A stretch of 64,000 bases of DNA, taken from assembly GCA_934663775.1 (NCBI GenBank), contig CAKUKU010000002.1:131525-195524 (forward strand), written 5' to 3'. Below are positions 27,432 through 54,166 of this stretch, piece after piece. The notes under the pieces are model-generated. The model did not search any database. It saw only the letters and a list, made by a program, of their open reading frames with translations, and was not told the DNA's origin. Within the stretch, counting starts at the first letter, position 1. The number at the start of each line of letters is the position of its first letter. The DNA is from an uncultured Ellagibacter sp. (GTDB lineage: Bacteria; Actinomycetota; Coriobacteriia; Coriobacteriales; Eggerthellaceae). The translations under genes were made by a program, and so were the position numbers.

Positions 27432-28490
27432 TTAGTCGCCAGCATCACATTCGCTGAAGGAGATGAGAGCATAACATCTTTTGGAAGCGTCCCATTCTCC
27501 TACGATTCCAATCATCCATTCAGGCTCTTCGACCATAAGCGACTTGTCAGTTTCGCAATAATAGATGCGCTCGTTATACCGTCGGACTAAACGGGCAATG
27601 CACTCACGTATACTGCTTGAGCTAAATTCGCCCATTTCTTCGATATTTGTTCCAACAAACGATTCGATGCTTTGAACGCCAACGCGGCTGTCTAGTCCTT
27701 CGGATTCAAAAAGGCCAGTGGCAAACTGCACCTTTTCGTATGGCACAAGCATGACTGGCCGGTAGCCTTCCCGGATGTTCTCCTGCGCCCGAGCTACCAG
27801 CTTTTGCATCGGCGACACCGTTACATGGAATGCTGTGCTGCCTAGTTGGAAGTCCCCCTGACGGTTCGTCTGCTGATCTGCGGCGTTGGCCTTGTCGCGA
27901 CCGATATCCAGATTCGGAAAACGTAGCTCTAGCTTTGCACCCACGAGATGCTGTGCCACAATTCCGGTTGGCTGATCAGGACGAATATACGCTGCACGCA
28001 AGATATCTGCAACGATAGCCGAAACTGGCTTACTTGGGTCGATGTCTATCTTCATGCGCTGCTTAGCGAAGTAGTCTATTTGGATGCACCGCACGAAATA
28101 GTTCTGCAGTTCCTTGGCCACTGCGATGCGGTCTTTCTCCATCAGCCCTTCAGCAAACAGTCCATTAAGAATGCCCGCCAGCTCCTGCGCCGCAGGAAGT
28201 GATCCTCGGGACGTTCTTCCACCTTCAGACGTGAATTCCTGCTCCACACCGTAATCTTTCAAGATACGCGACACCATAGATCCGCTTAGCCCGCGAACCT
28301 GACTATCGTTTTCGGATTTTACAATCTTGTCCGTTAAGGGAAAGCTGTTCTTTAGAAGCTCCGCCACAGCAAGCCCAACACACATAATATTTGTGTTGAC
28401 ATTACCCTTCTTGCTACGCTTTCCTTCATACCAATCCACAGCTGCATTGAGAGCCAAGTCGACAACATCATTTTTATCATTATTGATCAC
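27432..28490 (-). CDS. DUF4928-like protein, probable restriction-type partner of the methyltransferase
   Basis: Protein of 352 residues, no signal peptide or membrane segment. The central part has GAKLELRFP followed by RQGDFQLGSTAFHVTVSP, a GDF...HVT pattern I associate with DUF4928 proteins found next to C5-methyltransferases. The spacing resembles a PD-(D/E)xK nuclease core (inference). It begins 4 bp after the methyltransferase stop, so the two are one operon with the methyltransferase first. The likely role is restriction paired with protection. An alternative is a regulator or specificity factor; no catalytic residue is proven. Confidence 0.7.
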   Translation of the reverse strand: MINNDKNDVVDLALNAAVDWYEGKRSKKGNVNTNIMCVGLAVAELLKNSFPLTDKIVKSENDSQVRGLSGSMVSRILKDYGVEQEFTSEGGRTSRGSLPAAQELAGILNGLFAEGLMEKDRIAVAKELQNYFVRCIQIDYFAKQRMKIDIDPSKPVSAIVADILRAAYIRPDQPTGIVAQHLVGAKLELRFPNLDIGRDKANAADQQTNRQGDFQLGSTAFHVTVSPMQKLVARAQENIREGYRPVMLVPYEKVQFATGLFESEGLDSRVGVQSIESFVGTNIEEMGEFSSSSIRECIARLVRRYNERIYYCETDKSLMVEEPEWMIGIVGEWDASKRCYALISFSECDAGD

Positions 28491-28494
28491 GGGA

Positions 28495-29592
28495 TCAGCC
28501 CTTCTTCAATGCAGGCAATATGGCTTGCTCCATGATCCACGTCACCGCTGGAACCGCAACGGCATCGCCAAAAGCATACTGAATCTGCGACTCTTTAAAA
28601 CCCTTCAGGTTAAAGTTGTTTGCGCCTTGCAATCGTGCGTATTCCAGCCCGGTCATCCAGCGCATACGTACTTTCCCCTTGCCGATAAACACGACAGCCT
28701 GCTTGGAGGAACCGCCTCGGGCGGTACGCAGGCAGCCGGAAATATCGTCTTCGCGCATCTCCCAGACAGGCTTTCCCGCTCTAGTACGACGATATGCCGT
28801 CCGAGCAACCAGTTCATTCGCATTCCTCAGATACTCAAATCGCTCTCGCTGAATGCTGCTCAGAGAATCAATGAATGCCTCGCAGCGCTTCTCGTCCCAC
28901 CAACGAGGGTCAGAATCAGCTAGCTTTTCCGTTATGTCCGTAAAACCACTCGAAAGAAGTGCCGGTGCCTTCTCGACTGGCGTGACATGTGTCTTTAATT
29001 CGGGGTCAGCATGAATCCAAGCAACCCGATCAGGACGTATAGAGGTATCAATCTCGCCGCCGCTGATAGGATCCTTAACGCCGACAATGAACAAACGCGG
29101 GCGCGACTGTGGAACCCACCTTCGAGCATTTAGTTCAAATGCGTCAACTGAATATCCAAGTCGATTGAACTCCATAACGACAGTGCGAAAATCACTGCCT
29201 TCATGAGATGATGAAAGTCCGCAAACGTTTTCAAGAACCACTGCACGGGGGGAGCGATTTCCCATGTGCTCGATAACATCAACAAATCCGAAAAAAGCCC
29301 TTGATTCTGGCCCGTCAACAAGACCGCCGCGCTTGCCTGCAAGCGAGAGATCGGTGCAGGGACTCGATGCCCAAGCGACATCGGCCTCAGGGACCGTATC
29401 AGCATCTACGTCGAACACATCGCCGAAAGCCAGGTCATCTTCGCCCCACTGAGCAGCATATAATCTGCGTTTAATTTCATCGATGTCGTTGGCCCACACG
29501 GTTTTTATCCCAGCAGCGCTCATTCCAGCACGAGCTAGTCCAATACCAGAAAAAAACTCAAGAGCCCGAATTTGTCCGCTTTGCTTAGCCAT
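28495..29592 (-). CDS. dcm: DNA C5-cytosine methyltransferase
   Basis: Protein of 365 residues with the ordered motifs of the family: motif I FFSGIGLARAG for SAM binding, motif IV SSPCTDLSLAGKRGG with catalytic Cys79, motif VI ENVCGL (Glu121), motif VIII QSRPRLFIVG, and C-terminal motifs IX-X around RWMTGLEYARLQG and YAFGDAVAVP. The target-recognition region lies at about residues 190-290. Cytosine methylation here probably protects self DNA from the DUF4928-like partner. It is an AT-richer gene than its surroundings. The gene symbol is generic; no recognition site can be read. Confidence 0.92.
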   Translation of the reverse strand: MAKQSGQIRALEFFSGIGLARAGMSAAGIKTVWANDIDEIKRRLYAAQWGEDDLAFGDVFDVDADTVPEADVAWASSPCTDLSLAGKRGGLVDGPESRAFFGFVDVIEHMGNRSPRAVVLENVCGLSSSHEGSDFRTVVMEFNRLGYSVDAFELNARRWVPQSRPRLFIVGVKDPISGGEIDTSIRPDRVAWIHADPELKTHVTPVEKAPALLSSGFTDITEKLADSDPRWWDEKRCEAFIDSLSSIQRERFEYLRNANELVARTAYRRTRAGKPVWEMREDDISGCLRTARGGSSKQAVVFIGKGKVRMRWMTGLEYARLQGANNFNLKGFKESQIQYAFGDAVAVPAVTWIMEQAILPALKKG

Positions 29593-41049: not shown

Positions 41050-42477
41050 CTATTCCCAGGTCATAAGGTCATTTAGGATTCGAACGTCCTCGCATTCATC
41101 AAGCTTGGAACAAATTTCGATCATCTTCTCTACGCTCCCGGCAGAAGGCGTCGAATCAGCATAGTCGACATTGCCTCGAAATTTCTTGATTACATCATCG
41201 TACGACTGCGGCATCTCCTCGGACCCCATCGCTTCGGCAAAGTACTTCTCGTAAACTGTGCCATCGTTCATGGTAACGATCACGACGGCTCCTTCGTAAG
41301 GCGATTTCTTGACATCCTTGGGGTCGCAGCGCGGATCGTACTCGAATGTCTTGATCTTGTCGGCAACTTCTCGAAGCATCGGGTTCCAGATGCCAGTCTC
41401 GCTGTCGGCGTACTCTGCCAAAGTCGCGCGACCGTAAACCAACCCGCAGACCGCGCCCCAGGATGAGCTGAATTGGACGTCGACGGGGGTCTTGGGATGG
41501 GCCTTGACCTCGAGCGGGAGGCCAAGCAGGTTCAACGTGCCCTTGCCCGATTTGATATCGATTCTCTCTATTTCGTGCGGGTCGATATTGTAGTTGTCGT
41601 GTAGATAGATGCCGCAGTCGATAAAGTCATGCGTTCCACGGCAGCACGGATACGGCTTGCAGAGAACGCCTTCCGCGAACCAGAAGTCCCCCAATCGTTC
41701 GATGACTAGATCGCGGTCGTAATCGTTGCGATGATACTGCCTAAAATAGCCTTCCTTGCCCTCGAGCGCATGGTAGCCGGCAGTGACGCCCGCTTGCGCG
41801 AGCTGTGCCGAGATGATTCCATTGCGGACGGCGAATCCAGGGCCAACGCGCTTTGCGCAGCCGCCATCTTTGGTGACCTGCCCCGTGCCGGAAGCCTGAT
41901 GCAGGCCTAGTCCCATTGCGTTCACTTGTTGCATGAAATCGAGGCCAAGCGTGTTCGCCGCTAGGTTCGCAGCGACCAAGTTCCCGTTCAGCGTCGTCGT
42001 ATGCCATCCTTGGTCGGGGATGGGCGTCCCCGGCTCGGACCCGCGGTTCATACGAAGCAGCATCTCCGCACCGAGGGCCACATTCAGCATCAGCTGCTTG
42101 CCCGTCATGCCGCCCATGTAGTCAGCGAGAGCCAGGGACGTCGAAACAGAGATGACACCCGGATGCATGACGAGGTCGTGGACGTCGTCGAAATCTAGCG
42201 CATGGCCCGCTGTCGCGTTGGACTGCGCAGCGTAAGCCACGGGAATCTTCGTTCCAGAACCCCACACATGCGCCTCGGGCGTACCGCCGTTGCGCAGATT
42301 GAATTCGCGGACCTGCTTAGGTCCAGGGTAGTTGTAGCCGGCCATGGCACAGCCAAGAAAATCGATGACCTGCTGTTTGATTTTCTCAGTATGCTTTTCC
42401 GAAAGGTCTTCGTATTTCGCGTCCCTGAAGAAATTCGCGAAAACGAAGGCCAAATCCTCGTTGTAGTCGATTGTCAT
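41050..42477 (-). CDS. MmgE/PrpD-family dehydratase-like protein
   Basis: 475 residues of the family that contains 2-methylcitrate dehydratase and cis-aconitate decarboxylase. Typical blocks are QQVIDFLGCAMAGYNYPG, GHALDFDDVHDLVMHPG (conserved active-site region), QGWHTTTLNGNLVAA, KPYPCCRGTHDFIDCG and the C-terminal PYEGAVVIVTMNDG. The family handles small tri- and dicarboxylates. It lies 89 bp downstream of a DcuC-type carrier on the same strand, suggesting uptake and conversion of a dicarboxylic or tricarboxylic acid. The ribosome site is GGAGGAGC before the ATG. The exact substrate cannot be assigned. Confidence 0.92.
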   Translation of the reverse strand: MTIDYNEDLAFVFANFFRDAKYEDLSEKHTEKIKQQVIDFLGCAMAGYNYPGPKQVREFNLRNGGTPEAHVWGSGTKIPVAYAAQSNATAGHALDFDDVHDLVMHPGVISVSTSLALADYMGGMTGKQLMLNVALGAEMLLRMNRGSEPGTPIPDQGWHTTTLNGNLVAANLAANTLGLDFMQQVNAMGLGLHQASGTGQVTKDGGCAKRVGPGFAVRNGIISAQLAQAGVTAGYHALEGKEGYFRQYHRNDYDRDLVIERLGDFWFAEGVLCKPYPCCRGTHDFIDCGIYLHDNYNIDPHEIERIDIKSGKGTLNLLGLPLEVKAHPKTPVDVQFSSSWGAVCGLVYGRATLAEYADSETGIWNPMLREVADKIKTFEYDPRCDPKDVKKSPYEGAVVIVTMNDGTVYEKYFAEAMGSEEMPQSYDDVIKKFRGNVDYADSTPSAGSVEKMIEICSKLDECEDVRILNDLMTWE

Positions 42478-42565: not shown

Positions 42566-43957
42566 TTAGCAGAGAATGAAGCAGCCGATAATGCCCGCAG
42601 CGATAACCATGCACGCGATCGGCGCGTTGCGCTTGATCAGCGTCATCAAATCGACACCGGCTGCCGTGCTGACCATGATCGTCTGCGGATGAACCGGGCA
42701 CATACAGGACGAGACACCGAGCATCACGAGAACAGCCATGAAGCAGACGTTGACGTCCATGCCTGTTACGGCGGCGATGCTCGTCATCAAAGGAGCAGCA
42801 ATCGCAATCGTCGCGGTGACTGACCCGCAGCAAATGATGATCGGCATGCAAAGTACACAGCCGACGGCGCAGATAAGATAGCCGTTCCCGCCCGCGTTCG
42901 ACAAGAGCTGGGCGATAGCCTGGAGGCCGCCCATGGAGCTGAGCACAGTAGCGAACATCGCGGCCGGAATGATGAGCCAGCCGCCATTGCGCATGAAGTC
43001 AGCCATGGCGAGGAAGAAGTTGTTCGCATTTTCGAAGCATGTCTTGAAGCTCTTAGTGTGGATGAGGTCGATGATCATGGTCAGTATAATCGATACGAAG
43101 ACCGCGCCGATAACGCTGAGAACGATCGTACCGAGGACGAGCTTCGAGAAGACGACCACGAAAACAAGCGGGAAAATCGGGAACAATGCATAGTAGGCGG
43201 GGCAATCGGGGACAGCGATCTCGACGTCGGTGCTGGCGTTACCTTCGACGGTGAGGCCTTTCTTCGCCGCACGCTTATCGCAGATCATGGAGTAAATCGG
43301 GAAGGCGATCATCGCGAAGGGGACCATGACAGCCATGGTCGGAACGTGGTACGCCGCGAAGAACTCGGGCACAGACATCGCCTGAATACCCGACACAGAG
43401 AAAATCTGCGCAGTCATCGTGTCTGCGGGGCCCCAGATGAAGCCGGTCGCTATCATGATGCAGGAACCCGACGTGAGAGCGGAGCAACCTGCGGCGCGGA
43501 GTACCGGATACATAGTCGCCAACATAAGCGCAGCGAGAGAGGTGGCGCTCGGGATACAGAGCTTCAAGATGAAGACGAGCAAGATGACGCCCGAGCAAAG
43601 GATGTACGGGTTCTTCAGCTTGGTGAAGGGCTTGGCGCAGATCAACGCGAAGCGATCGGATGCGCCGATTTTGTTCATGTAGCCGACGTAGCCGAGAACG
43701 GCAAGAATCGTCAGAAGGGCACCTGACATCTGCTTGGTGAACGTGCTTTGGAATAACTCGAAGCAATCAAGGAACGCATTGCCCGTCCCCTTGTCCCCTA
43801 GGAGGCTCTGCCCCCCGCTGAAGACGGTAAACAAGATTGCGCCGAGCAAGGCGGTGAGCATCAGAACGATGATTGTCGGCTTCACATTCTTGACCAGGCA
43901 AACGATGAAGATTGCCAGAAGGACAAGGGTAAGCGCGATGGAGATTGCGGTACTCAT
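42566..43957 (-). CDS. C4-dicarboxylate carrier, DcuC type
   Basis: Polytopic membrane protein of 463 residues with about 12 segments, of the DcuC anaerobic dicarboxylate family. Features are an N-terminal segment LVLLAIFIVCLVKNVKPTII, an early GYVGYMNKIGASDRFA loop, the IPSATSLAALMLATMYPVL region and a late FILC end. ATG 43957 with AAGGGGAC upstream is preferred over the in-frame extension to 44011. It precedes the MmgE/PrpD gene and is presumed to import its substrate. DcuC members exchange or export C4-dicarboxylates under anaerobic conditions. Confidence 0.88.
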   Translation of the reverse strand: MSTAISIALTLVLLAIFIVCLVKNVKPTIIVLMLTALLGAILFTVFSGGQSLLGDKGTGNAFLDCFELFQSTFTKQMSGALLTILAVLGYVGYMNKIGASDRFALICAKPFTKLKNPYILCSGVILLVFILKLCIPSATSLAALMLATMYPVLRAAGCSALTSGSCIMIATGFIWGPADTMTAQIFSVSGIQAMSVPEFFAAYHVPTMAVMVPFAMIAFPIYSMICDKRAAKKGLTVEGNASTDVEIAVPDCPAYYALFPIFPLVFVVVFSKLVLGTIVLSVIGAVFVSIILTMIIDLIHTKSFKTCFENANNFFLAMADFMRNGGWLIIPAAMFATVLSSMGGLQAIAQLLSNAGGNGYLICAVGCVLCMPIIICCGSVTATIAIAAPLMTSIAAVTGMDVNVCFMAVLVMLGVSSCMCPVHPQTIMVSTAAGVDLMTLIKRNAPIACMVIAAGIIGCFILC

Positions 43958-44169
43958 ATTCGTCCCCTTATGATTGACATGAACAGAGAGCGCACACGCC
44001 CACTTCCCCATAAGGACGCATGCAAAGAAGGGTAAGTGAAAATAGATTCCTGGCTAACTACGTTTAATCAGTTTGAGCAGCCTCGATGAAGAGGACCGTG
44101 GAGACGGTTGAGCGAGCGTTATCTGCTATCGGAGCCCGCGCGCCTGCTTTTCGAGGATTGGTGCCGTCA

Positions 44170-44436
44170 TCAAGAGGGCATGCCGGGAATCTTCGGTTTG
44201 GGCTTGGCGACTGGCGCGCCCGGCACGGTCGGCACTGCGGGCATGCCGGGAACGCTCGGCGCTTCCGGAGCTCCGGGAGCCGAAGGGGCTTTGGGAGCGG
44301 GGGCCTCTCCAAGCCCCTCGAATGAAGTCTTGCAGAAAGGGCATTTCTTCGGCAGCACGCCGTTGGTGGAGTTGATCTTCTTGCCGCAGTTGGGGCATTC
44401 CAATCCGCCGCTTGCATCTGGTGGTCTAAAACACAT
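44170..44436 (-). CDS. Zinc-ribbon protein with Pro/Ala-rich tail
   Basis: 88 residues beginning MCFRPPDASGGLECPNCG. Two CxxC knuckles (CPNC, CPFC) make a zinc ribbon in the first 40 residues. The rest is a flexible Pro-Gly-Ala tail with repeats of APxAPG and VPG. TAGGAG precedes the ATG. It is the last gene of the molybdoenzyme operon, 25 bp after the previous zinc ribbon. Function unknown; possibly a small electron carrier or maturation/scaffold factor (inference). Confidence 0.75.
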   Translation of the reverse strand: MCFRPPDASGGLECPNCGKKINSTNGVLPKKCPFCKTSFEGLGEAPAPKAPSAPGAPEAPSVPGMPAVPTVPGAPVAKPKPKIPGMPS

Positions 44437-44461
44437 ATCGGACTCCTAATCGCATTGAATA

Positions 44462-44683
44462 TCACTTTGGAGAGCGAGGCAACGCCGAATAACATGCAAC
44501 AGTCGGCCTATCCTTAGCCTTCCTTTGCCATTCGGCAATCGCCTCATCTTTGGCTTCGGCTGTTAATTCCGCGCCGCATTTCTTGCATTTGCCCATAACC
44601 AGGAAATTCCGAGTGCCGCAGTTCGGGCAATCGACGTATTTCGGTCTGCAGTTGTCACACGTGCTTCGACATCCGTAAGCCAT
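44462..44683 (-). CDS. Cys-rich zinc-ribbon protein, 73 residues
   Basis: MAYGCRSTCDNCRPKYVDCPNCG and KCKKCGAEL contain seven cysteines in the first half, more than a single zinc ribbon needs, so two sites are possible. The C-terminus (AIAEWQRKAKDRP) is helical and basic. GAGGCGAGG precedes ATG 44683. It lies between two other small zinc-ribbon genes, with 39 and 25 bp gaps. No family known to me. Confidence 0.75.
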   Translation of the reverse strand: MAYGCRSTCDNCRPKYVDCPNCGTRNFLVMGKCKKCGAELTAEAKDEAIAEWQRKAKDRPTVACYSALPRSPK

Positions 44684-44722
44684 GGATCCTCGCCTCTCCA
44701 ACATCGAAGAACCGCTTAAAGG

Positions 44723-44908
44723 CTATTCCTCGTCGGATTTGAACTCGAACTTCGTCTTGCACCAAGGGCACTTCGTCGTGAAGCTGCCGAATTCGCGGCT
44801 CGTCACGATCTTGCGAAGAGGCTTGCCGCAGTTCGGGCACACCTTCGGCGCCTGGTCTTTGAGCTCGTTGATCCCCTCGACGTCTTTTTGGTCAGGACTG
44901 TAGGCCAT
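44723..44908 (-). CDS. Zinc-ribbon protein, 61 residues
   Basis: MAYSPDQKDVEGINELKDQA leads into VCPNCGKPLRKIV and TTKCPWCKTKFEF, a plain two-knuckle zinc ribbon, with an acidic end. AAGGGAGA precedes ATG 44908; longer in-frame extension is low-complexity. It starts 80 bp after the Fe-S subunit gene. Its MAY start and CPNC context resemble the next protein, so they may have arisen by duplication. Confidence 0.75.
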   Translation of the reverse strand: MAYSPDQKDVEGINELKDQAPKVCPNCGKPLRKIVTSREFGSFTTKCPWCKTKFEFKSDEE

Positions 44909-44988
44909 GGTGGTCTCCCTTCTTGCGTAAACTGAAACGACGCCTCGGGCGAGATCGGGGAGCGACCGCCCGAGGCGTTTGCCGACGA

Positions 44989-45324
44989 TTACGGCAGGAA
45001 AACGGCGACGCCCTTGCCGCCGAGCTCGGCCATGCGCTTGCCGGCGTCCTCGAGGGGAACGGCCTCCATGCACTTTGCCAAACAGTGGTGCACGCATGCG
45101 GGCTTCTTCCCCGCCTCAATCCGCTCCGCGCACAGGTCACAAAGCGAAGACGGGACGGGCACGTAGTCCCAATACCATTCGCCGTCAAGCTTCTGGGGAC
45201 CGAACTCGGCGAATTTGATTCCCCACTCATCGAGGTTCTTGATTCCCTTTTCCTGACGACAGGCAATCTCGCAAGTGTGGCAACCGGTGCAGTACTTGTA
45301 GTCAATCAGCAGTGCGTAATCCAT
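44989..45324 (-). CDS. Small 4Fe-4S ferredoxin subunit of the molybdoenzyme
   Basis: 111 residues. The first cluster is CTGCHTCEIAC (Cys12, 15, 18, 22); a second is suggested by CDLC and CVHHCLAKC. This is a shortened form of the DmsB/PhsB-type electron-transfer subunit, which normally has four clusters and ~200 residues. It lies 29 bp after the catalytic subunit gene, with AGGAGGCAG before the ATG. It should pass electrons to or from the Mo enzyme. No membrane anchor is present in the operon, so the complex is probably soluble and cytoplasmic. Confidence 0.9.
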   Translation of the reverse strand: MDYALLIDYKYCTGCHTCEIACRQEKGIKNLDEWGIKFAEFGPQKLDGEWYWDYVPVPSSLCDLCAERIEAGKKPACVHHCLAKCMEAVPLEDAGKRMAELGGKGVAVFLP

Positions 45325-45353
45325 AACCCTGCCTCCTTTCGAATGTGTTGGGG

Positions 45354-47711
45354 TTACTCACCCGGATGGATGTTCTCGTAGATGTAAGGAGACTTCTCAC
45401 CAGCATCGGGCCAGCTGTTTGGCCCGCGGTCGTCGCGGGGCACGTAACCCGCCGGATCCTCCATCGCGGCGTTAGGGTCGTCGACCTTGTAGATCTTGCA
45501 CAGCACGTTCTTGTACGGAGCCCCGTAGCCGAGCTTGCCGACCTTGTACATGGGAATAAGGCGGTTAATGTTCGACTTCCAGACTCCGAACAGGTTCGGC
45601 GCCTCGCCCTCTTGCTCGGGGAACCACCAACCGTGCGTCGCATGGACGACGCGCTCGTCGACTTCGTTGGAGACACGCGCGCGCTCGCAGCACTTGCCGA
45701 GGGGGTTCTCAATCATGACCCAATCGCCGCTGTTGATGCCGAGCTCCTTGGCGGTCTTCGGGTTGATGGTTACCAACGGGTCGGGCGTGCATGCCCGAAG
45801 CGCAGGGAGCTGGCGGTGCTCGGAATGGAACGAAACGAAGTCGCGCCCTCCCGTGGTAAGGACGAGCGGGTATTCCTTGTAGAGCTCTGGCGTCGAGTAA
45901 GGGCTCATGGCGGGCTCCATGAAGAACGGCAGGTCCTGCTCACCGAAGTCGTCGTAGATGGAGGAAGCGACCTCTATCATGCCGGTCGGCGTGTTGAAGC
46001 CAGGCTCGCCGTCGGGGCGCAGCAGGCCCTTCTCATACTTGCGGTAGACCTGATGTTGCTGGTGGCATCCCTCCTCACGAAGCTCATTGAATCCCCACTC
46101 GTACTGGGTGTGGATCTGCGCGTCGAAGAACTCCTCGACAGTCTCCCACGGCCACGCCTCGGGATTGAGTTTCTTTCCGATGAGCATGTCAATCTCGATA
46201 TCCGACTTGCACTCGCCCTTCTGAATTGCCTTGTTGATGGCGCCGATGAAATGCGTGTTGCGGCCGAAATGCGGAAGTACGACCGAATCCTGCTCGGCGA
46301 AACCCGCCAGAGGCAGCACGAGGTCGCACACGCCCATGACAGTCGGCGTCATGAAGACCTCGTGGGCGGCGTTGAAGTCGCACTTCATGAGCGCGTTGTA
46401 CCAGCGCTCAGGCTCCGCGTAACACGTTGGCGAGATCGGGTTGGAACCGTAAAAGTAGGTCATCTTGATCGGATAGGGCTGTTCAGTCTCGAGCGCGGTG
46501 AGGATGGAGTCCGGGTGGCACATGGGGCCGGTCGCGTAGGCGGGATGCGTCTCCTTGGCATCGATGCGCTTCGCGAAGACCTCCTTGTCCACGTACTGAC
46601 TAGTCTCGAAGCGCCAACGTCCCATGAAGGATGACGGTAGCGCGAGGATAATGCCGCCGGGAACGTCCATATAGCCGCAGATTGCGGCGATGGCGAGCAT
46701 GGCCTGGCCAGCCTGGGCGCCGTTCTGCTGCGTGTCGAACGCGAGGCCCCACATGATCGACGAGGGCGCGTTCGTCGCGAACGCCCTTGCCGCCTCACGA
46801 AGCGTGTCGGCGGGAACCCATGTAATCTCCTCGGCCCACTCAGGAGTCGTATCCTTGACGCGCTCAGCGAGCTCATCAAGGCCGAACACCCAGTTCTCGC
46901 AGAAATCATGGTCGTAGAGGTCTTCCCCGATGATAACATTGAGCATTGCAAGAGCCACAGCCGCGTCAGTGCCTGGACGAAGCTGCAAATGATAGGCAGC
47001 ACGGGAGCCGAGCCAAGTCAAGCGGGGGTCGATGGTGATAATCTTGCTACCGCGCTTCATCAAGTCAACGATAGCGTGCCCATAGAAGCCATCGGGATTG
47101 GATTGAAGCGGGCTCTTGCCCCACAGGATGATGTACTTCGGAAGCTCGTATTCGGGGTCATCGTAGCGATCCTCGAAAAATTGAGCGTAGTCAAGCTCGG
47201 GATAGCCCGCGCCCAGAAGGAAGTCGGCGACAACCGTGCGGGGACCGTAGCAAGAAGATCCGGACATCATGAACGAGATGTTCGGAGTCTTGAAGCACGC
47301 GTTGGCCAGCGGGGGACCGTAGATACTCGCCTGACGTCCGGTACCCTGCGACACGAAGATGGATTCCGGTCCATAGTTGTCCCAAATCTTATGGACTTCG
47401 TCGTAGATGATGTCGAGAGCCTCGTCCCAGGTGACGCGCTCCCACTTGTCCTTGCCGCGATCCTCTTTGGCACGCCTCATCGGGTAGAGAATACGGTCGG
47501 GGCTGTTCTCGAACTCGACGAGGTCCATGCACCTTGCGCAAAGGCGACCCTGGGAGATGGGGTGCTCCTCGTCACCCTCGACCTTAACTATCTCCCCATC
47601 CTTGACATGAAGAATCATGCCACACCCAGTGGGATGGCATCCCGGAGGAGACCAGCCACAAGTCCTGATCAAGGTTTCCCCGTTTTCCTCGGTCTTCCAA
47701 CCTTTCTTCAT
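45354..47711 (-). CDS. Molybdopterin oxidoreductase catalytic subunit (DMSO-reductase superfamily)
   Basis: 785 residues. The N-terminal Fe-S motif uses Cys18, 25, 30 and 58 or 61 (RTCGW, PPGCHPTGCGM, RLCARC), followed by DRILYPMRR. Cys154 in SGSSCYGPRT is the likely Mo/W ligand. Cofactor regions include KYIILWGKSPLQSNPDG, ITIDPRLTWLGS and the C-terminal LTTGGRDFVSFHSEHRQ. There is no Tat signal, so it is cytoplasmic, unlike most respiratory reductases. The operon order is carrier, this subunit, Fe-S subunit, three zinc ribbons. Eggerthellaceae carry many such enzymes for dehydroxylating or hydroxylating aromatics; the substrate here is unknown. Confidence 0.93.
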   Translation of the reverse strand: MKKGWKTEENGETLIRTCGWSPPGCHPTGCGMILHVKDGEIVKVEGDEEHPISQGRLCARCMDLVEFENSPDRILYPMRRAKEDRGKDKWERVTWDEALDIIYDEVHKIWDNYGPESIFVSQGTGRQASIYGPPLANACFKTPNISFMMSGSSCYGPRTVVADFLLGAGYPELDYAQFFEDRYDDPEYELPKYIILWGKSPLQSNPDGFYGHAIVDLMKRGSKIITIDPRLTWLGSRAAYHLQLRPGTDAAVALAMLNVIIGEDLYDHDFCENWVFGLDELAERVKDTTPEWAEEITWVPADTLREAARAFATNAPSSIMWGLAFDTQQNGAQAGQAMLAIAAICGYMDVPGGIILALPSSFMGRWRFETSQYVDKEVFAKRIDAKETHPAYATGPMCHPDSILTALETEQPYPIKMTYFYGSNPISPTCYAEPERWYNALMKCDFNAAHEVFMTPTVMGVCDLVLPLAGFAEQDSVVLPHFGRNTHFIGAINKAIQKGECKSDIEIDMLIGKKLNPEAWPWETVEEFFDAQIHTQYEWGFNELREEGCHQQHQVYRKYEKGLLRPDGEPGFNTPTGMIEVASSIYDDFGEQDLPFFMEPAMSPYSTPELYKEYPLVLTTGGRDFVSFHSEHRQLPALRACTPDPLVTINPKTAKELGINSGDWVMIENPLGKCCERARVSNEVDERVVHATHGWWFPEQEGEAPNLFGVWKSNINRLIPMYKVGKLGYGAPYKNVLCKIYKVDDPNAAMEDPAGYVPRDDRGPNSWPDAGEKSPYIYENIHPGE

Positions 47712-47771
47712 TTCCTCTCCTCTCTCTAACGCTCGTTTTCAACTCAAAAGCCCCAACTTAGGCTTAAGATG

Positions 47772-49130
47772 CTATTCATCAAGCTCCTCGATGACGAGTC
47801 CCCTCGTTTCATCGCGAATAAGAACCCTCGTGAAGACCAACGTAAGGAGCAGCGGAACTACGAACACCACCAACACGATGGCGAAAGTCATGCCGGATTG
47901 CATCAATCCCCCGATGAGCATCGGAGTAAGGATGCCCCCTATGCGCGCCACCGTGGTTGTGCAAGCCTGCCCCGTGGCTCGGATCTCAGTCGGGTACACC
48001 TCGATCGTAATCGGCTGGGGCGTGGTGAACGCGTAGTTAATTGCGAACCCCATCACGATCACCGACGGAACCATCAAACCGAGACCGAACCCGCAGAGCA
48101 CGAGGAACAGGACGGCGAAGACGGAGGTCGCGACGGCGATGTACGTGCTCCTGATGCGCCCCACCTTGTCCGCCATGAACCCAGCAAACACGGCGCCCAA
48201 GCAACCGAGCGAGTTCATGAGCGTCGTCAGAGCGTAGCTCGACGAGACGGAGTAGCCGCTATGCACGAGAACCGTCGGCATCCAGTTCGTGAGCCCATAC
48301 GACAGCGCGCACGTACTGAAGGCAACCAGCCAAATGCCCAGCGTTACCCTCAGATACTTCCTCGATACAAGCGCCTTGAGCTGCCCTTGCCGCTCCGCCC
48401 CAGAGCCCTCGGCGGGAACGTGAATCTCACTTGCCGTGTAATCCTTCTCGCGCGGGTCATCGAGGCCGTGGTTGATCTTGTTGAGAATCCGCGCCGCCTC
48501 TTCCATCCTGCCCTTGCGGACGAGCCAATGCACCGACTCGGGAACGAGAAAGTACATGGCGATTGCGTAAGCAAAGGGGAACCCGCCGATCAGATAGCAA
48601 AACCGCCAGCCGAATCGAGGCACCACGTACATGGCCACCAGTCCCGCAAGAACCCAGCCGAACATCATGAACATCTTGGTGAGCGTGACGAACTTTCCTC
48701 GATGCCTAGTCGGCGCGTATTCAGACGCCAGCGTCACACTCAGCGGAATCACCGCCCCCACGCCCATACCAGAGACGATTCGGCAAACCGCGAATGCATC
48801 GAAGGTGTGGACGAAGAAGATCGGGATGGTGAGGAGCGAATAGACCATGATACTCACGTTCAGGACATGCTTTCGTCCGAACCGGTCGGCCAGATATCCA
48901 GCGAAGAACCCTCCGACGAGCATCCCAATGACGCTAAACGACGACAATGACCCCGTTGCGAGAAGACCTAACTCCATTTCAGCCATTATCTGAGGCATGG
49001 TAAACGACACAATCATGAAGTCGAAGCCGTCAAAAATCATCGCAATGCCCACCAGAACCAAGATCCTGATTGAGTACCGTAGCCCGCCCTTATTCTCCAA
49101 AATCTTGGTCACCGTTGTGTTGCCCATCAT
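47772..49130 (-). CDS. MFS carrier, aromatic acid:H+ symporter type
   Basis: About 452 residues and 12 segments. The start of segment 1 has AMIFDGFDFMIVSF, the DGxD signature of the aromatic-acid symporter family. The loop 2-3 motif is GYLADRFGRKHVLN, and loop 8-9 has GFMADKVGRIRSTY. ATG 49130 follows GGGGGGAAG. The next gene, 60 bp downstream, is the molybdoenzyme, so it probably imports that enzyme's aromatic or related acid substrate (inference from family and context). Confidence 0.88.
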   Translation of the reverse strand: MMGNTTVTKILENKGGLRYSIRILVLVGIAMIFDGFDFMIVSFTMPQIMAEMELGLLATGSLSSFSVIGMLVGGFFAGYLADRFGRKHVLNVSIMVYSLLTIPIFFVHTFDAFAVCRIVSGMGVGAVIPLSVTLASEYAPTRHRGKFVTLTKMFMMFGWVLAGLVAMYVVPRFGWRFCYLIGGFPFAYAIAMYFLVPESVHWLVRKGRMEEAARILNKINHGLDDPREKDYTASEIHVPAEGSGAERQGQLKALVSRKYLRVTLGIWLVAFSTCALSYGLTNWMPTVLVHSGYSVSSSYALTTLMNSLGCLGAVFAGFMADKVGRIRSTYIAVATSVFAVLFLVLCGFGLGLMVPSVIVMGFAINYAFTTPQPITIEVYPTEIRATGQACTTTVARIGGILTPMLIGGLMQSGMTFAIVLVVFVVPLLLTLVFTRVLIRDETRGLVIEELDE

Positions 49131-49337
49131 CTTCCCCCCGAACCCGAATGCGCAGCCCAAAGTTTCCGTTCGATGCATTCATGATAAGGGCTGTCCAAAG
49201 GGTCGATAATTGCCCAATCGAACAAAAAACGCGCAAAAATATAGCGCGGCCAACAGTAGCCAGCTCTTTCGCCTCTCACCATAAGAAAGCTACCGAATGC
49301 CGATTGATTGCTCCATGACACGAAAATCGCGCCCTGC

Positions 49338-49407: not shown

Positions 49408-49926
49408 CTAATTCGCCTTGAATATTTCCCCGTTTTCGCATTTGAACCCATATTCGCGGTCGAGCAGCAACGAGAAATGGAATATGGGCTTGTCGACTTT
49501 GTTGACGTACAGCGGAAGATGCAACACCCCGGCTGGAATGAGGATCAACGAACTTTTGGTCAAGATGTGCTTCTCCCCCTCCAGCCAAATCTCAACCTCC
49601 CCGCCAAGATCGTAGGGATTGTAGGGGTCCGATCCGTAAAAGCACAGAAGCTCGTCGACATCGTGGACGTGGGGCTTACCTATCATCCCCTTCTCGCCCT
49701 CCTCCACGACCCATTTATCCATGTACTCGTGATTTGCGGAGTAGTACCAGGCAGTGTTTATCTGAAAAGGAGCCGGCAGGACGCTGCCGTCCATCCAGAG
49801 AATCCTTTTCCTGCCAGCCTTCTCGTATTTCGCGATGGCGTCCGGAGTCGCATGTACCGCCGGCAACACTAGTTCTTGGAGGATGTACTTACCGTACTCG
49901 CCTTCGTTGTTCAAACATTCTTTCAC
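49408..49926 (-). CDS. Cupin protein, 172 residues
   Basis: Single-domain cupin with motif 1 PHVHDVDELLCFYG and motif 2 PAGVLHLPLYV, giving metal ligands His, His, Glu and His. An N-terminal extension of about 60 residues contains RKRILWMDGSVLPAPF. It is related to the cupins at 53297 and 53750, all sharing H-x-H-D-x-D-E and the KPI-x-H-F/W end. It starts 11 bp after the flavin reductase stop, so it is cotranscribed. Enzyme (dioxygenase, isomerase, decarboxylase) or ligand-binding protein cannot be decided. Confidence 0.85.
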   Translation of the reverse strand: MKECLNNEGEYGKYILQELVLPAVHATPDAIAKYEKAGRKRILWMDGSVLPAPFQINTAWYYSANHEYMDKWVVEEGEKGMIGKPHVHDVDELLCFYGSDPYNPYDLGGEVEIWLEGEKHILTKSSLILIPAGVLHLPLYVNKVDKPIFHFSLLLDREYGFKCENGEIFKAN

Positions 49927-49937
49927 TGCATCTCCTT

Positions 49938-51893
49938 TTACAGCAGGCTGGCGACGTTGAAGCCGTCATGAACGGCCTTCATGACGTTCGCCACTCTTTC
50001 GCAATCTCCGATTCTGTATAAGTCGGAGGAGATTCCCTCGAATTCGGTGGAGAGCGCGTTATTCGGCGAGAATCCGAGCGAGAGGATGACCGTGTCGGCG
50101 GCAACGGCCTTCCGGCGCCATCTCTTGTCCATGAGGACGACTCCCGATTCAGTCACGCTGTCGAGCTGGTGCTCGAACACGAGCTCGACTCCCGATTCCC
50201 TCAATTCGAGATCGAGGCTCTTGATCCAGCGACCCACCGCTTTTTTCTCCGAGCCCCTGTCGACGAGCGTGACCCGCTTGCCGTCGCGGGCGAGCTGCAA
50301 GGCCGTCTCCGCCCCGCTCGGACCGCCTCCGATGAGCACTACCTCATCGCCTACGGGAACGTCACCTTTGTCTACGTCCCCAAACCAAACGACGTTGTTG
50401 AGCTCTTCGCCGGGAAAATGGGGGATGACGGGCTCGGAGCCAGCTGCCAGGATAACCGCATCGGGATCCACCTCCGCGACGAGATCGCGGGTCGCCTCAG
50501 TATTGAGCCTGACCTCTATAGCCGGATTCTTCTCAACCTGAGAGATCAGCCAGCGAAGGTAGCGGCGGATATCCTGCTTGTACTCGACGGCCGAAGCCAA
50601 GACGAGTTTTCCTCCGAGCTGAGAATCTTTCTCGAATATCACCGACTCGACGCCACGTTCCGCGGCAGAGAGAGCGGCCTGCATGCCCGCAGGTCCCCCG
50701 CCCACAATCGCCACATGCTTGGCCTTGGCCTTCTCGGGGATCCGCAAGAGCATCATCTCTTTCCCGAGTTTCGGGTTCACCGCGCAGCGAACGGGAGCAC
50801 CCTTACCCGAATGCATGTTGCACGTCCAGCAGCGCAGGCACGGGCGCGTGTCCTCCGTTTTCCCATATTTGGCGTTATTGACCGTTTGCCCCCCAGCCAT
50901 AATCGCACGGGCCATGGCGACCATATCGGCCTTCCCAGAGGCAATAACCTCCTCCGCTTCCCTCATCGTCGCAATCGATCCAACGGCAACGACCGGAACG
51001 TCGAGCTCTTCTTTGAACTGTTCCGCGTAATGAACGTTGACGCAATGGGGCATGTACATAGGCTGAATCATGTAGCGCATCGTCTTATCGGAGCTGCACA
51101 TGCCGGCTGAGACATGGAGAAGATCTATCTTGTCTTCTATCATCTTTACGAACTGAATCGTCTCCTCGGGATGCATTCCTCCAGGCGTTAGCTCGTCGGC
51201 GCTGATTCGGTATTCAATGCCAAAGTCGTCGCCGACTTTGTCGCGAATCGCCTCGAGAACCTCGATGGCGAAGCGAGCGCGGTTGCGCAGAGGCCCCCCG
51301 TAGTTGTCGGTTCTCTTGTTCGTGTAGGGTGAGAGGAACTGAGCGAGCAGATGGCCGTGCGCTCCGTGGAGCATCGCCATCTCCATGCCGGCTTTCCTGC
51401 AACGCAGGAAGGCATTTGCGAAACTCTCGATAGTCTCATCAATAAGCCTCTGGTCCATTTCCAGAATGGTTCGCCGCGGACGACACTCAGCTTTTGCAGC
51501 GAACAGCTCGTTCTCGTCGTACAGAGCCGATGGGGCGATGTTCTCGTTCCGCGAGCGAATCGACCTGCCGCCATGCTGAATTTCTATTGACAGTTTCGCC
51601 CCATAGCGGGCGACAGCCTCGTTCACCCGGAAAAGGTAGTGTATGGCATTATCGGAACCAAGGTTGAGGCACGGTCGGAACGTCTGGGAGTAACCGAAGT
51701 CTATAGGAGTTTCCCCTATGGTGATCACCGCCGCCCCGCTTTTCGCGAGTGCCTCGTAGTAGGCGACCATCGACTCCGTGCCCTCGCCTGTGAAGAGCCC
51801 CATGTTATACCCCGTCGGGGCCATTTCCACGCGATTCTTGACGGACACTTTTCCGAACGAGAACGGAGATAAAACATGATCGAAATTTCCCAT
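49938..51893 (-). CDS. NADH:flavin oxidoreductase with Fe-S cluster (2,4-dienoyl-CoA reductase type)
   Basis: 651 residues. The N-terminal ~350 are an old-yellow-enzyme TIM barrel that binds FMN (VEMAPTGYNMGLF, HGGRS, MLHGAHGHLLAQFLSP). A [4Fe-4S] motif follows, CLRCWTCNMHSGKG and RCAVNPKLG. The C-terminal half has an FAD dinucleotide loop IVGGGPAGMQAA and an NAD(P)H loop LIGGGPSGAETA. This FadH/BaiCD-type design reduces enoyl or enone double bonds. AGAGGGGAA places the start at ATG 51893. It lies between an MFS gene (14 bp) and the cupin gene. The likely substrate is an unsaturated acid or cyclic enone carried by the neighbour. Confidence 0.93.
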   Translation of the reverse strand: MGNFDHVLSPFSFGKVSVKNRVEMAPTGYNMGLFTGEGTESMVAYYEALAKSGAAVITIGETPIDFGYSQTFRPCLNLGSDNAIHYLFRVNEAVARYGAKLSIEIQHGGRSIRSRNENIAPSALYDENELFAAKAECRPRRTILEMDQRLIDETIESFANAFLRCRKAGMEMAMLHGAHGHLLAQFLSPYTNKRTDNYGGPLRNRARFAIEVLEAIRDKVGDDFGIEYRISADELTPGGMHPEETIQFVKMIEDKIDLLHVSAGMCSSDKTMRYMIQPMYMPHCVNVHYAEQFKEELDVPVVAVGSIATMREAEEVIASGKADMVAMARAIMAGGQTVNNAKYGKTEDTRPCLRCWTCNMHSGKGAPVRCAVNPKLGKEMMLLRIPEKAKAKHVAIVGGGPAGMQAALSAAERGVESVIFEKDSQLGGKLVLASAVEYKQDIRRYLRWLISQVEKNPAIEVRLNTEATRDLVAEVDPDAVILAAGSEPVIPHFPGEELNNVVWFGDVDKGDVPVGDEVVLIGGGPSGAETALQLARDGKRVTLVDRGSEKKAVGRWIKSLDLELRESGVELVFEHQLDSVTESGVVLMDKRWRRKAVAADTVILSLGFSPNNALSTEFEGISSDLYRIGDCERVANVMKAVHDGFNVASLL

Positions 51894-51907
51894 TTCCCCT
51901 CTTTTCA

Positions 51908-53116
51908 TTATCGTGCGCCTCTGTTATACAAGGCACCATCCCTTTCCTGCTGGAGTGCTCCCAGAATTAACCTGCGCTTGCGCAGCCAGACTGCGAACGC
52001 AAGCGAACCGAGCGACAAAACAAGCGCTCCACTGGCATATGAAGCGCTGTAGCCCCCGAAGGAATGAGCCAGGCAGCCGCCGGCAATCGCGCCCATGCCT
52101 TGGCCGCAATCGACACCAATGTAAAAGGTCGAACTTGCGCGACCGCGATTTTCCGCTGGCGCGTCCTTCAATGCTTGGCTCTGAAGAGATGACTGACCTA
52201 TTCCTTGTCCAAAGACGCGAAAAACAGCGGCTGCGACAATCCCAGCGAAAGACGAGGTCAAAGCAACGGTTGCCATGCAAAGAGTTTCGGAAGAGAAGGC
52301 AACCCAGCCAAGGAGTTTCACGCCATGCCCGTCGGCGTACCTACCCGTAGCGGGTCTGACAAGGACCATGCCAAATGACGCTACGCAGAAAAAGACGGCT
52401 GCGGCGCCGGCAACTCCCCTCTCTTCGCCGACAAGGACCATAAAGCTCGTCGTCAAACCAGCACAATAAGCGAAGGACGCCACAATGACAGACAGCGGAA
52501 GCGTCTTCATGTCGACACATTCCGTCAAAGTGATTCGATCTCCCCATTTGCGGGGCGGCGGAGATTTTGGAAGGATGATCGCCAGCATCGAACCAGTCAA
52601 CATGACTCCAGCCGCAAGGAAGAAGGAGAACTGGTGGTTGAAAACTTGCACTAGGAGGACCCCGAGTGAAGGACCTAACGTCATACCAACCATCGAAGCT
52701 ACACTGACGTATCCGACCGCCTCCGCAGCCCTGTCAGAGGGAACGAACTCAATGGATAGGACCGTTATGATTGTTGTCTGCACGCAAAGCGCAAACGCAT
52801 GGGGCACGCGGAAAACCGCTACGAGAAAAGCCGTCTGGGAAAACCCGTATCCAATAAGGGAAAGAAACCCGGTCAGAATGCCGACTTCAAGAAAGAGCTT
52901 TTTGTCGACCCTGTCCGCAGCATAGCCAACAAGGGGGCGAAAGAGCAGAGCGAGAAAAGAAAACAATCCGGCAATGAGGCCCGCTGTAGCCGCCGATTCG
53001 CCAAGCGAGACGACATATTGAGCGATAAGCGGGGTGATCATGTTGAATGACAGCATGTACAGCGCCTGGAGAGCTAGGCAAGATACGAAGCGCTTGTTCC
53101 AAAACGCCTGACGCAT
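51908..53116 (-). CDS. MFS transporter
   Basis: 402 residues, 12 segments. The start MRQAFWNKRFVSCLALQALY is chosen at ATG 53116 because GGGAGAG lies ahead; the longer in-frame option at 53140 lacks a ribosome site. The loop 2-3 motif is GYAADRVDKKLFLE, and loop 8-9 has GRYADGHGVKLLG. Only 14 bp separate it from the flavin reductase, so they are one operon with the cupin. It is divergent from two cupins. Resembles set/arabinose-efflux-like MFS proteins; substrate unknown. Confidence 0.88.
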   Translation of the reverse strand: MRQAFWNKRFVSCLALQALYMLSFNMITPLIAQYVVSLGESAATAGLIAGLFSFLALLFRPLVGYAADRVDKKLFLEVGILTGFLSLIGYGFSQTAFLVAVFRVPHAFALCVQTTIITVLSIEFVPSDRAAEAVGYVSVASMVGMTLGPSLGVLLVQVFNHQFSFFLAAGVMLTGSMLAIILPKSPPPRKWGDRITLTECVDMKTLPLSVIVASFAYCAGLTTSFMVLVGEERGVAGAAAVFFCVASFGMVLVRPATGRYADGHGVKLLGWVAFSSETLCMATVALTSSFAGIVAAAVFRVFGQGIGQSSLQSQALKDAPAENRGRASSTFYIGVDCGQGMGAIAGGCLAHSFGGYSASYASGALVLSLGSLAFAVWLRKRRLILGALQQERDGALYNRGAR

Positions 53117-53296: not shown

Positions 53297-53710
53297 ATGA
53301 GCAATATAGAAAACTATGTCTCGCGGTACTCGAGGCCCAACGGCGTTCAGCTGACAAAGGATGGGTCGATTTTCCGCGAGAATATCCTCCTTCTGAACGG
53401 GGACGTTCTTCCCAATGCTCCGTACTTCACGATTACCTGGTACTGCAGCCCGGGCGACCCGAAGACCGAAACCCATGTCCACGACTTCGATGAGTATCTC
53501 GGCTTTGCCGGGTCCGACCCCGAAGACCCAACGAACCTCAATGGGCTTGTTCGCTTCATGATTGACAACGAATGGGTCATCATCGACAAAAGCACCATCC
53601 TGTTCGTTCCCGCCGGCGTCAAGCATTGCCCCTACGTTATCGAGCGCGTCGACAAACCCATCATCCACTGGTCGGGCGGAAACGCGACCTCATATCAGCA
53701 AATCAGGTAA
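53297..53710 (+). CDS. Cupin protein, 137 residues
   Basis: Small cupin with metal ligands in THVHDFDEYLGFAG and PAGVKHCPYVIE. Starts MSNIENYVSRYSRPNG behind a strong AGGGAGGGG. The repeated pattern WYCSPG-DPKTETHVHDFDE and FVPAGVKHCP is very close to the next gene (about half the residues identical by eye), so the pair is a tandem duplication. 180 bp separate it from the divergent MFS gene. Probably binds a divalent metal; enzymatic role unproven. Confidence 0.88.
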   Translation: MSNIENYVSRYSRPNGVQLTKDGSIFRENILLLNGDVLPNAPYFTITWYCSPGDPKTETHVHDFDEYLGFAGSDPEDPTNLNGLVRFMIDNEWVIIDKSTILFVPAGVKHCPYVIERVDKPIIHWSGGNATSYQQIR

Positions 53711-53749
53711 TTTTCACCGCCTGCCACTTCCAACCGATTGGAGACAAGC

Positions 53750-54166
53750 ATGAGCCAGAGCAAATATCTGTCGTCCTACTCTCTCGACTTCGACAATGTC
53801 GACGAGAACAACGAGGTTGTTCGACGCAATGTCATTTTATTGAATTCTGAAGTCATTCCCGGAGCTCCCTATTTCACTTGCACGTGGTTCTATAAGAGCA
53901 CTGGAATGATGCAGGAGACCCACACGCATGACTTCGATGAACATATCGGCTTCGTTGGATCGAATCCCGACGATCCAACAGATTTGGGAGGCGTTATCAA
54001 ATTCATGGTCAACGGTGAGTGGATTACCATCGATCGAAGTGCGGTGCTCTTTATACCCGCGGGCGTTCCCCATTGCCCTTACGTTATCGAACAGGTAAAT
54101 CGCCCTATCATCCACTGGTCTTCAGGTTCGACAAGTGCCTATTCACAAAAGAAGGAAGCAGAGTAG
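53750..54166 (+). CDS. Cupin protein, 138 residues, tandem paralogue
   Basis: Starts MSQSKYLSSYSLDFDNVDEN at ATG 53750 behind GGAGAC; the upstream in-frame TTG is not needed. Metal motifs are THTHDFDEHIGFVG and PAGVPHCPYVIE, then NRPIIHWSSG. It differs from its neighbour mainly in the N-terminus and loops. It lies 39 bp after the first cupin, with a strong terminator after. The two cupins plus the MFS/flavin reductase/cupin operon form a divergent locus, plausibly under one control region at 53117-53296. Confidence 0.88.
   Translation: MSQSKYLSSYSLDFDNVDENNEVVRRNVILLNSEVIPGAPYFTCTWFYKSTGMMQETHTHDFDEHIGFVGSNPDDPTDLGGVIKFMVNGEWITIDRSAVLFIPAGVPHCPYVIEQVNRPIIHWSSGSTSAYSQKKEAE

Follow-up and report, generated by a model that had tools for sequence, protein, structure and literature searches.

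An apparently undescribed family of small four-cysteine ribbon proteins beside cytoplasmic molybdoenzymes in several bacterial phyla

Why a cytoplasmic molybdoenzyme should be encoded together with three different small cysteine-rich proteins is the question raised by a six-gene set in a 64,000-nucleotide stretch of DNA (hereafter the window) from an uncultured Ellagibacter sp. of the Eggerthellaceae (contig CAKUKU010000002.1, positions 131,525 to 195,524). The enzyme is of a known kind; the novelty lies in the small proteins, here called ribbons. One of them, ZR88, belongs to a family named after its N-terminal residues, MCFRP, which is apparently undescribed and lies beside cytoplasmic molybdoenzymes in several bacterial phyla. 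The zinc-ribbon proteins are not chance neighbours of the enzyme, and we propose tentatively that they act in its maturation. The set and its parts are as follows.

44170-49139, minus strand: six-gene set, transcribed in the order major facilitator superfamily (MFS) carrier, Mo subunit, iron–sulfur (Fe-S) protein, ZR61, ZR73, ZR88
47772..49139, minus strand: aromatic-acid-type MFS carrier (Pfam MFS_1 and Sugar_tr above cut-off)
45354..47711, minus strand: 785-residue molybdopterin catalytic (Mo) subunit of the dimethyl sulfoxide (DMSO) reductase family, without signal peptide (Pfam Molybdopterin, Molydop_binding and Molybdop_Fe4S4 above cut-off)
44989..45324, minus strand: 111-residue Fe-S protein, the small subunit of this enzyme type, with cysteines in two groups of four (Fer4_11 above cut-off)
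44723..44908, minus strand: ZR61, 61 residues, two CxxC knuckles, starting MAYSPDQKDVEGI (zinc-ribbon-type Pfam matches below cut-off)
44462..44683, minus strand: ZR73, 73 residues, of a second family with an N-terminal cysteine ladder and a four-cysteine ribbon (alignment A3, 24 sequences)
44170..44436, minus strand: ZR88, 88 residues, of the MCFRP family, with the MCFRP N-terminus, a four-cysteine ribbon and a Pro/Ala-rich tail (alignment A2, 44 sequences)

The open reading frames (ORFs) confirmed the places and lengths that a preliminary description of the locus had given for the six genes, including the small proteins of 61, 73 and 88 residues. Its reading of a Mo subunit without signal peptide, in a set without a membrane-anchor gene, was borne out by the N-terminus and by Pfam. 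The carrier had been taken to start near 49130, and its longest ORF starts at 49178; its top NCBIfam match is the aromatic acid/H+ symport subfamily, with a score below the family cut-off. For all three ribbons Pfam gave zinc-ribbon-type matches only, every one below cut-off. Successive genes of the six are separated by 60, 29, 80, 39 and 25 bp, and between 43900 and 49400 promoter-like and terminator-like sites are as frequent as in shuffled sequence.

Purifying selection acts on each of the three small proteins, as measured by the ratio of non-synonymous to synonymous change (pN/pS) against orthologous loci: 0.08-0.22 for ZR61, 0.35-0.44 for ZR73 and 0.32-0.48 for ZR88, over six locus pairs each, among which L001 and L003 come from a single metagenome-assembled genome and L012 matches ZR88 through a distant subtype. 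ZR61 is the best conserved of the six products (82-93% identity over six locus pairs, versus 74-86% over seven for the catalytic subunit); the carrier orthologues share 67-72% identity in six of the seven compared loci. By these measures the small ORFs behave as real genes.

Members of the MCFRP family follow a common plan (alignment A2), with MCFRP at the N-terminus, one four-cysteine ribbon and often a tail rich in proline, alanine and glycine. Among 136 distinct genes starting MCFRP or MCYRP, 135 begin with ATG and one with GTG, and 73 lack an in-frame start upstream; a Shine-Dalgarno match in five or six of six bases precedes 100 of the genes (as against about 15 in shuffles). Tails of at least 20 residues are present in 118 of them, with a median content of Pro, Ala and Gly of 75%, and members without a long tail occur, for example, in Sporomusa. 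Because the motif itself had served to collect these genes, a search with a ribbon-only model was made as a check against that bias: 84 of its 91 hits of at least 25 bits carried MC[FY]RP (83 found by script, one missed by the motif window), and four of the seven hits without it were ZR61. The motif is, to judge from these features, the true N-terminus. When sub-threshold matches are included, Pfam assigns DZR to 34, Zn_ribbon_3 to 28, RUBY_RBDX to 16 and PF01155 to eight of the 44 aligned cores. AlphaFold2 models of the MCFRP and ZR73 cores reached a mean predicted local distance difference test (pLDDT) score of 66 and 67, too low for a fold search.

The association with the enzyme was followed in 77 loci of the clade of the window enzyme, taken from the best 80 of 573 confirmed matches and thus representing its closest relatives rather than a random sample. 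A small ORF starting MCF[RK]P is present in 53 of these loci and lies within 6 kb of the enzyme gene in 50 (34 of 50 in Actinomycetota, 12 of 19 in Bacillota, one of three in Thermodesulfobacteriota and three of five from unassigned phyla); the family also accompanies the enzyme clade in Bacillota and Thermodesulfobacteriota. Zinc ribbons had been described as no standard part of such enzymes, but since they are this common beside the clade they are less odd than first thought. In the 40 loci whose sequence extends 6 kb or more to either side, MCFRP was found in 26, and MCFRP or another cysteine-rich ORF starting with MC in 30; the ten with neither are all from Coriobacteriia. Seen from the side of the ribbon, the regions fetched from 11 genomes (leaving out genome G005, whose 19 hits are very like those of G006, and two of the ten hits of G011) contain 97 distinct MCFRP proteins. 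Counting molybdoenzyme ORFs on either strand, 57 of these proteins have one at up to 1 kb, 77 at up to 2.5 kb, 83 at up to 4 kb and 87 at up to 6 kb; counting the same strand alone, the figures are 50, 69, 75 and 80. The concern that the ribbon genes might occur independently of the enzyme, raised at the outset, therefore falls away for 87 members of the family of the 88-residue protein and stands for the ten that have no molybdoenzyme ORF within 6 kb.

Could such proximity arise in genomes so rich in molybdoenzymes that any small family would often fall near one? PF00384 hits number 31-94 in each of the Coriobacteriia genomes searched, which, like the ten unaccompanied proteins, speaks for this explanation. 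In Gordonibacter pamelaeae, however, 10 of 11 MCFRP genes have a PF00384 hit at 4 kb or less, whereas such positions make up 14.0% of the chromosome (p 2.8e-8). Across 197 genomes of the class, the family occurs in 13, that is, in 13 of the 113 with a PF00384 match as against none of the 84 without (Fisher 7e-4), and the pairing holds in Sporomusa despite only 10-11 PF00384 hits per genome. None of 97 MCFRP hits lies within 5 kb of a TorD gene. By the distances, the class-wide tally and the exclusion from TorD loci, chance neighbourhood is rejected as very improbable.

The family is patchily distributed. The A2 model gave 2-27 MCFRP hits per genome at E 0.001 in 12 genomes, and hits at 1e-6 in two of 296 genomes of the phylum; as the phylum and class scans scored the best candidates per genome, their counts are lower bounds. 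A protein database lists 82 relatives of ZR88, from sources that include Raoultibacter, Adlercreutzia and an Acidobacteriota genome.

Several individual arrangements may be recorded here. At L109, L120 and L138, two MCFRP genes adjoin in back-to-back orientation, and each shares its strand with a molybdoenzyme gene of its own, the two enzymes being of different clades. Where no molybdoenzyme ORF lies within 6 kb, inspection by eye places the MCFRP gene beside apparent methyltransferase genes in Desulfosporosinus (L166), near a Tat-type protein, maybe a flavoprotein, in Adlercreutzia faecimuris (L126) and Enterorhabdus P55 (L180), and beside a membrane-regulator-like ORF in Raoultibacter (L152).

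The other two ribbons show related behaviour. Around the enzyme clade, ZR73-type proteins occur in loci of Eggerthellaceae and, among Bacillota, of Sporomusa and others; in the window member Cys2 of the family is replaced by alanine. All seven cysteine-ladder hits in G. pamelaeae are within 5.5 kb of PF00384, as compared with 17.3% of the chromosome (p 4.7e-6), and two of the seven are within 2.5 kb (p 0.15). ZR61 has 13 relatives at E 0.01, from close relatives only. The three ribbons are found together in L001, L004 and L042, in differing gene orders, and L012 combines ZR61 and ZR73 with an MCFRP protein of another subtype, again in a different order. A different triple follows the enzyme in L049 and L058, consisting of an MCFRP protein, a protein ending ISYP..GPGFQEGYD and a cysteine-ladder protein.

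Enzymes linked to MCFRP differ from others in their export and anchoring context. The absence of TorD neighbours was established on full A2-model hits in 11 genomes (the two extra hits of G011 included), with the window itself outside that search; near TorD are 14 of 62 molybdoenzyme entries in G. pamelaeae, the only genome from which the background rate was taken. In that species MCFRP lies within 5.5 kb of 12 of 61 molybdoenzymes (61 of the 62 entries, which derive from 63 hits, two having been merged and one lacking a fetched region). Of these 12, none shows a twin-arginine translocation (Tat) motif, a TorD gene or an NrfD gene nearby, whereas these are present for 16, 14 and 16, respectively, of the other 49. 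Tat signals were screened with a simple motif test, of whose 16 positives in G. pamelaeae at least one looks false, and some of the enzymes scored as Tat-less have TorD or NrfD nearby. Over all MCFRP-linked enzymes the Tat motif was flagged in 3 of 81, and one of the three looks real.

As for the enzyme itself, among solved structures it comes closest to 2e7z, the acetylene hydratase of Pelobacter (E 3.5e-87 with the single sequence, 1.2e-105 with a profile). Acetylene hydratase is a single-subunit tungsten enzyme. The position equivalent to its Cys141 is also a cysteine in the window enzyme; the window set differs in adding an Fe-S partner, a carrier and ribbons, and the likeness is one of sequence. 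Cys154 of the catalytic subunit, in the motif SCYGPR, is invariant in 18 aligned relatives and is a candidate Mo ligand. The N-terminal cluster motif is unusual, since at position 25 Asp stands in 12 of the 18 sequences and Cys in five, with one lacking the residue, while Cys61 is invariant in all. Over residues 18-61 of the relatives P0001-P0120 and A1, Asp mostly takes the second Fe-S cysteine position (in 12 of the 17 rows that could be read), and two residues past the last ligand lies one more invariant cysteine (Cys58, Cys61). A molybdoenzyme subclade at L110, L121, L139, L168 and L190 has all its N-terminal Fe-S cysteines replaced (TWSPPGSHPVGYG ... GRVNAMNLA), and each enzyme has an MCFRP subtype of its own as partner (with the ending CPFCKCDF or similar). 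In P0077, a long relative, internal stretches are repeated and no ribbon was seen.

The Gordonibacter-type catechol dehydroxylases (Dodh, (-)-Eddh/Cldh, (+)-Eldh1/2, Gs Vadh and Eadh1-3) share the layout of the gene set: they are described as lacking a Tat signal and having a small Fe-S partner and an MFS carrier nearby (PMC7028382, PMC11887054). The window likewise has a Tat-less subunit of the DMSO-reductase family, an adjoining small 4Fe-4S gene and an MFS carrier. Enzymes of this kind dehydroxylate plant aromatics in gut bacteria, and reductive loss of a catechol hydroxyl would be a possible reaction here. Two neighbouring molybdoenzyme genes of G. pamelaeae 7-10-1-b encode products that are 73.8% identical; they are likely (+)-Eldh1 and (+)-Eldh2, a mapping made not from locus tags but because the co-localisation and 74% identity reported for that pair (PMC11887054) match. 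The window enzyme is 44-46% identical to these two, with 45% for the likely (+)-Eldh1 and 44% for the likely (+)-Eldh2 or the reverse, and 76% identical to another G. pamelaeae enzyme. On a FastTree tree of 57 G. pamelaeae entries and the window, in which the likely (+)-Eldh1/2 stand for the characterised members, it falls into a sister group. At the family level, the gene set encodes a two-subunit cytoplasmic molybdoenzyme on the branch that acetylene hydratase shares with the Gordonibacter-type catechol dehydroxylases, and we infer that the aromatic-acid-type carrier supplies its substrate.

The word zinc is absent from the main texts of PMC12771579, PMC11887054, PMC11585353, PMC11574389 and PMC9734109, and 'zinc ribbon' from that of PMC7028382; no publication was found, outside subscription papers and supplements, which the search did not cover, that links zinc ribbons to acetylene hydratase together with molybdopterin, to catechol dehydroxylase, to Gordonibacter, or to molybdoenzyme chaperones. 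The closest working model is the nickel metallochaperone HypA, whose invariant MHE N-terminus binds nickel and which has a two-CxxC zinc site (PMC5557546). The MCFRP family also combines an invariant extreme N-terminal motif with a four-cysteine, two-CxxC site, but differs in having MCFRP in place of MHE, a core of about 40 residues and other client enzymes. The matches to PF01155 are sub-threshold (best E 0.0013) and do not include the window member, and 135 of the 136 genes, gathered by motif, start MCFRP or MCYRP instead of MHE. The closest molybdoenzyme precedent is FdhE, though it is tied to the periplasm: it is described as a CX2C-rich metal-binding accessory of a bis-molybdopterin guanine dinucleotide (bis-MGD) enzyme, with four CX2C motifs, serving periplasmic formate dehydrogenases (PMC10609526). 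MCFRP proteins have two CX2C motifs per core, and nearly all linked enzymes are without a Tat motif, so that membership of the FdhE family was rejected. TorD chaperones (PF02613) resemble MCFRP in being encoded by small accessory genes beside bis-MGD enzyme genes; the families are unrelated, however, and their genome positions do not coincide, nor is PF02613 among the Pfam matches of the window ribbons (for ZR61, the best 25 of 35 listed). Rubredoxin membership was rejected on the same material, with no PF00301 match at E 0.1 (again, for ZR61, among the best 25 of 35); the window MCFRP core has none at E 0.01, and rubredoxin-like domains gave sub-threshold matches only.

Taken together, the linkage to molybdoenzymes, the exclusion from TorD loci, the company of enzymes without Tat motif or NrfD in G. 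pamelaeae, the recurrence beside the clade in other phyla, the invariant N-terminus, the strong conservation of ZR61 and the HypA precedent suggest, tentatively, that the ribbons serve as dedicated maturation factors of the cytoplasmic molybdoenzyme, and the role of assembly factor, named among others in the preliminary description, stays among the best. The ribbons would attach to the catalytic subunit and assist in inserting its metal cofactor or in checking it, taking for cytoplasmic enzymes the place that TorD chaperones have for Tat-exported ones. The MCFRP protein would carry a Zn(Cys)4-type ribbon, and the expected removal of the initiator methionine would expose a free N-terminal cysteine as a possible metal or sulfur ligand. 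It is tempting to generalize, though more doubtfully, that MCFRP, cysteine-ladder (ZR73-type) and ZR61 proteins make up a new class of factors devoted to the maturation of cytoplasmic bis-MGD molybdoenzymes. As minimal metallochaperones they would use a free N-terminal cysteine to handle metal or sulfur for the cofactor, and would be a counterpart of TorD for soluble dehydroxylases and hydratases that reaches more than 20 copies per genome in some Coriobacteriia.

A number of observations weigh against a maturation role. HypA membership was rejected, and ten MCFRP proteins stand without a molybdoenzyme nearby. Against a strict need, G. pamelaeae has 45 Tat-less molybdoenzymes, and for 33 of them, the likely (+)-Eldh1/2 pair included, no MCFRP gene lies within 5.5 kb; these (+)-Eldh enzymes are reported to be active on expression in Eggerthella lenta (PMC11887054). 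Six of the 33 loci have a cysteine-ladder protein nearby instead (ORFs read by eye), and four of the 16 loci with a Tat motif also have some small two-knuckle ORF, of unassigned class. Fisher p values for the exclusion of Tat, TorD and NrfD in this species (0.026, 0.052 and 0.026) are weak alone. The exclusion of Tat and TorD is, moreover, partly phylogenetic, because both follow enzyme clades on the tree (five changes for the Tat label); the MCFRP label is scattered on it, with nine changes, a number as low in 72 of 500 shuffles. In Raoultibacter timonensis a Tat-like enzyme ORF adjoins an MCFRP gene, the window-clade enzyme being 4.1 kb away, and the molybdoenzyme-rich genomes G283 (63 candidates) and G419 (48) gave no MCFRP hits in the lower-bound scan. 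Finally, ribbon and enzyme distances agree when all 74 pairs, orthologues included, are pooled (none of 2000 permutations reaches the observed value); within four single genomes, 608, 63, 122 and 1226 of 2000 permutations do so, and because the agreement there is weak, co-evolution was set aside as support.

Alternatively, though with low probability, the ribbons may remain in the mature enzyme as structural or docking subunits that stabilise or tether it, the Pro/Ala-rich tail being a flexible linker. Their small size, the tight operon, the strong conservation of ZR61 and the long tails of most MCFRP members would fit such an arrangement, but many related enzymes have no such gene nearby and some members, for example in Sporomusa, do without a long tail. 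Slightly less likely again is that the ribbons bind iron in the manner of rubredoxin and feed electrons to the Fe-S subunit, replacing a quinol-linked membrane anchor. The lack of NrfD beside MCFRP-linked enzymes of G. pamelaeae and the sub-threshold matches of ZR61 and of the MCFRP cores noted above to RUBY_RBDX (rubrerythrin, rubredoxin-like domain) are in line with electron transfer. The rubredoxin-like carrier envisaged in the preliminary description nevertheless finds no Pfam rubredoxin match in the window proteins, nor is a rubredoxin family among the 25 most frequent of the 78 families matched by the A2 sequences; the general zinc-ribbon families DZR and Zn_ribbon_3 match more cores, and electron transfer would leave the invariant N-terminus unexplained. 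The ribbons might also be regulators that tune expression of the enzyme, either by sensing metals or the redox state or by binding mRNA. Zinc ribbons are common among nucleic-acid-binding proteins, which counts for regulation, and seven relatives bear the name 'phage FluMu protein Com' in one source (JGI), Com being a translation activator of the zinc-finger type. Since, however, no DNA- or RNA-binding family is above cut-off for the window member, and up to 27 hits per genome are tied to loci of one enzyme superfamily, a regulatory function appears improbable.

By marking a subset of molybdoenzymes, the MCFRP family, whose genes lend themselves to deletion or co-expression, offers a handle on how a cofactor is acquired without TorD and electrons are supplied without an anchor. 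According to PMC7028382, PMC12771579, PMC11887054, PMC11585353, PMC11574389 and PMC9734109, gut Coriobacteriia encode dozens of molybdoenzymes, of which the characterised ones are highly specific for dietary polyphenols and host catechols; the family could serve as a genome signature for sorting the many that are uncharacterised. Accessory genes matter for production of Eggerthella-type enzymes in other hosts, as reported in PMC11887054, and MCFRP genes could aid such production.

The genes around the set include the following.

42566..44011, minus strand: DcuC-type carrier, 158 bp after ZR88 (NCBIfam DcuC_1 above cut-off)
41050..42477, minus strand: MmgE/PrpD-family enzyme (Pfam)
49938..51908, minus strand: 656-residue old-yellow-enzyme-like reductase, upstream (family assigned by eye)

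These three perhaps belong to the same pathway as the gene set. The DcuC-type carrier was matched in two of the 77 related loci (L001 and L015), the MmgE/PrpD-family enzyme in 12 and the reductase in five; the ribbons track the enzyme more closely than these remaining neighbours do. No substrate could be deduced from the neighbouring genes (old-yellow-enzyme-like, cupin, PrpD, DcuC and short-chain dehydrogenase/reductase). Three small cupin-like proteins flank the set, at 49408-49926 (a sub-threshold Cupin_2 match) and at 53297-53710 and 53738-54166 (both by eye). Farther away, at 27432-29592, an adjoining ORF pair resembles, by eye, a cytosine DNA methyltransferase and its partner, possibly a restriction-modification system.

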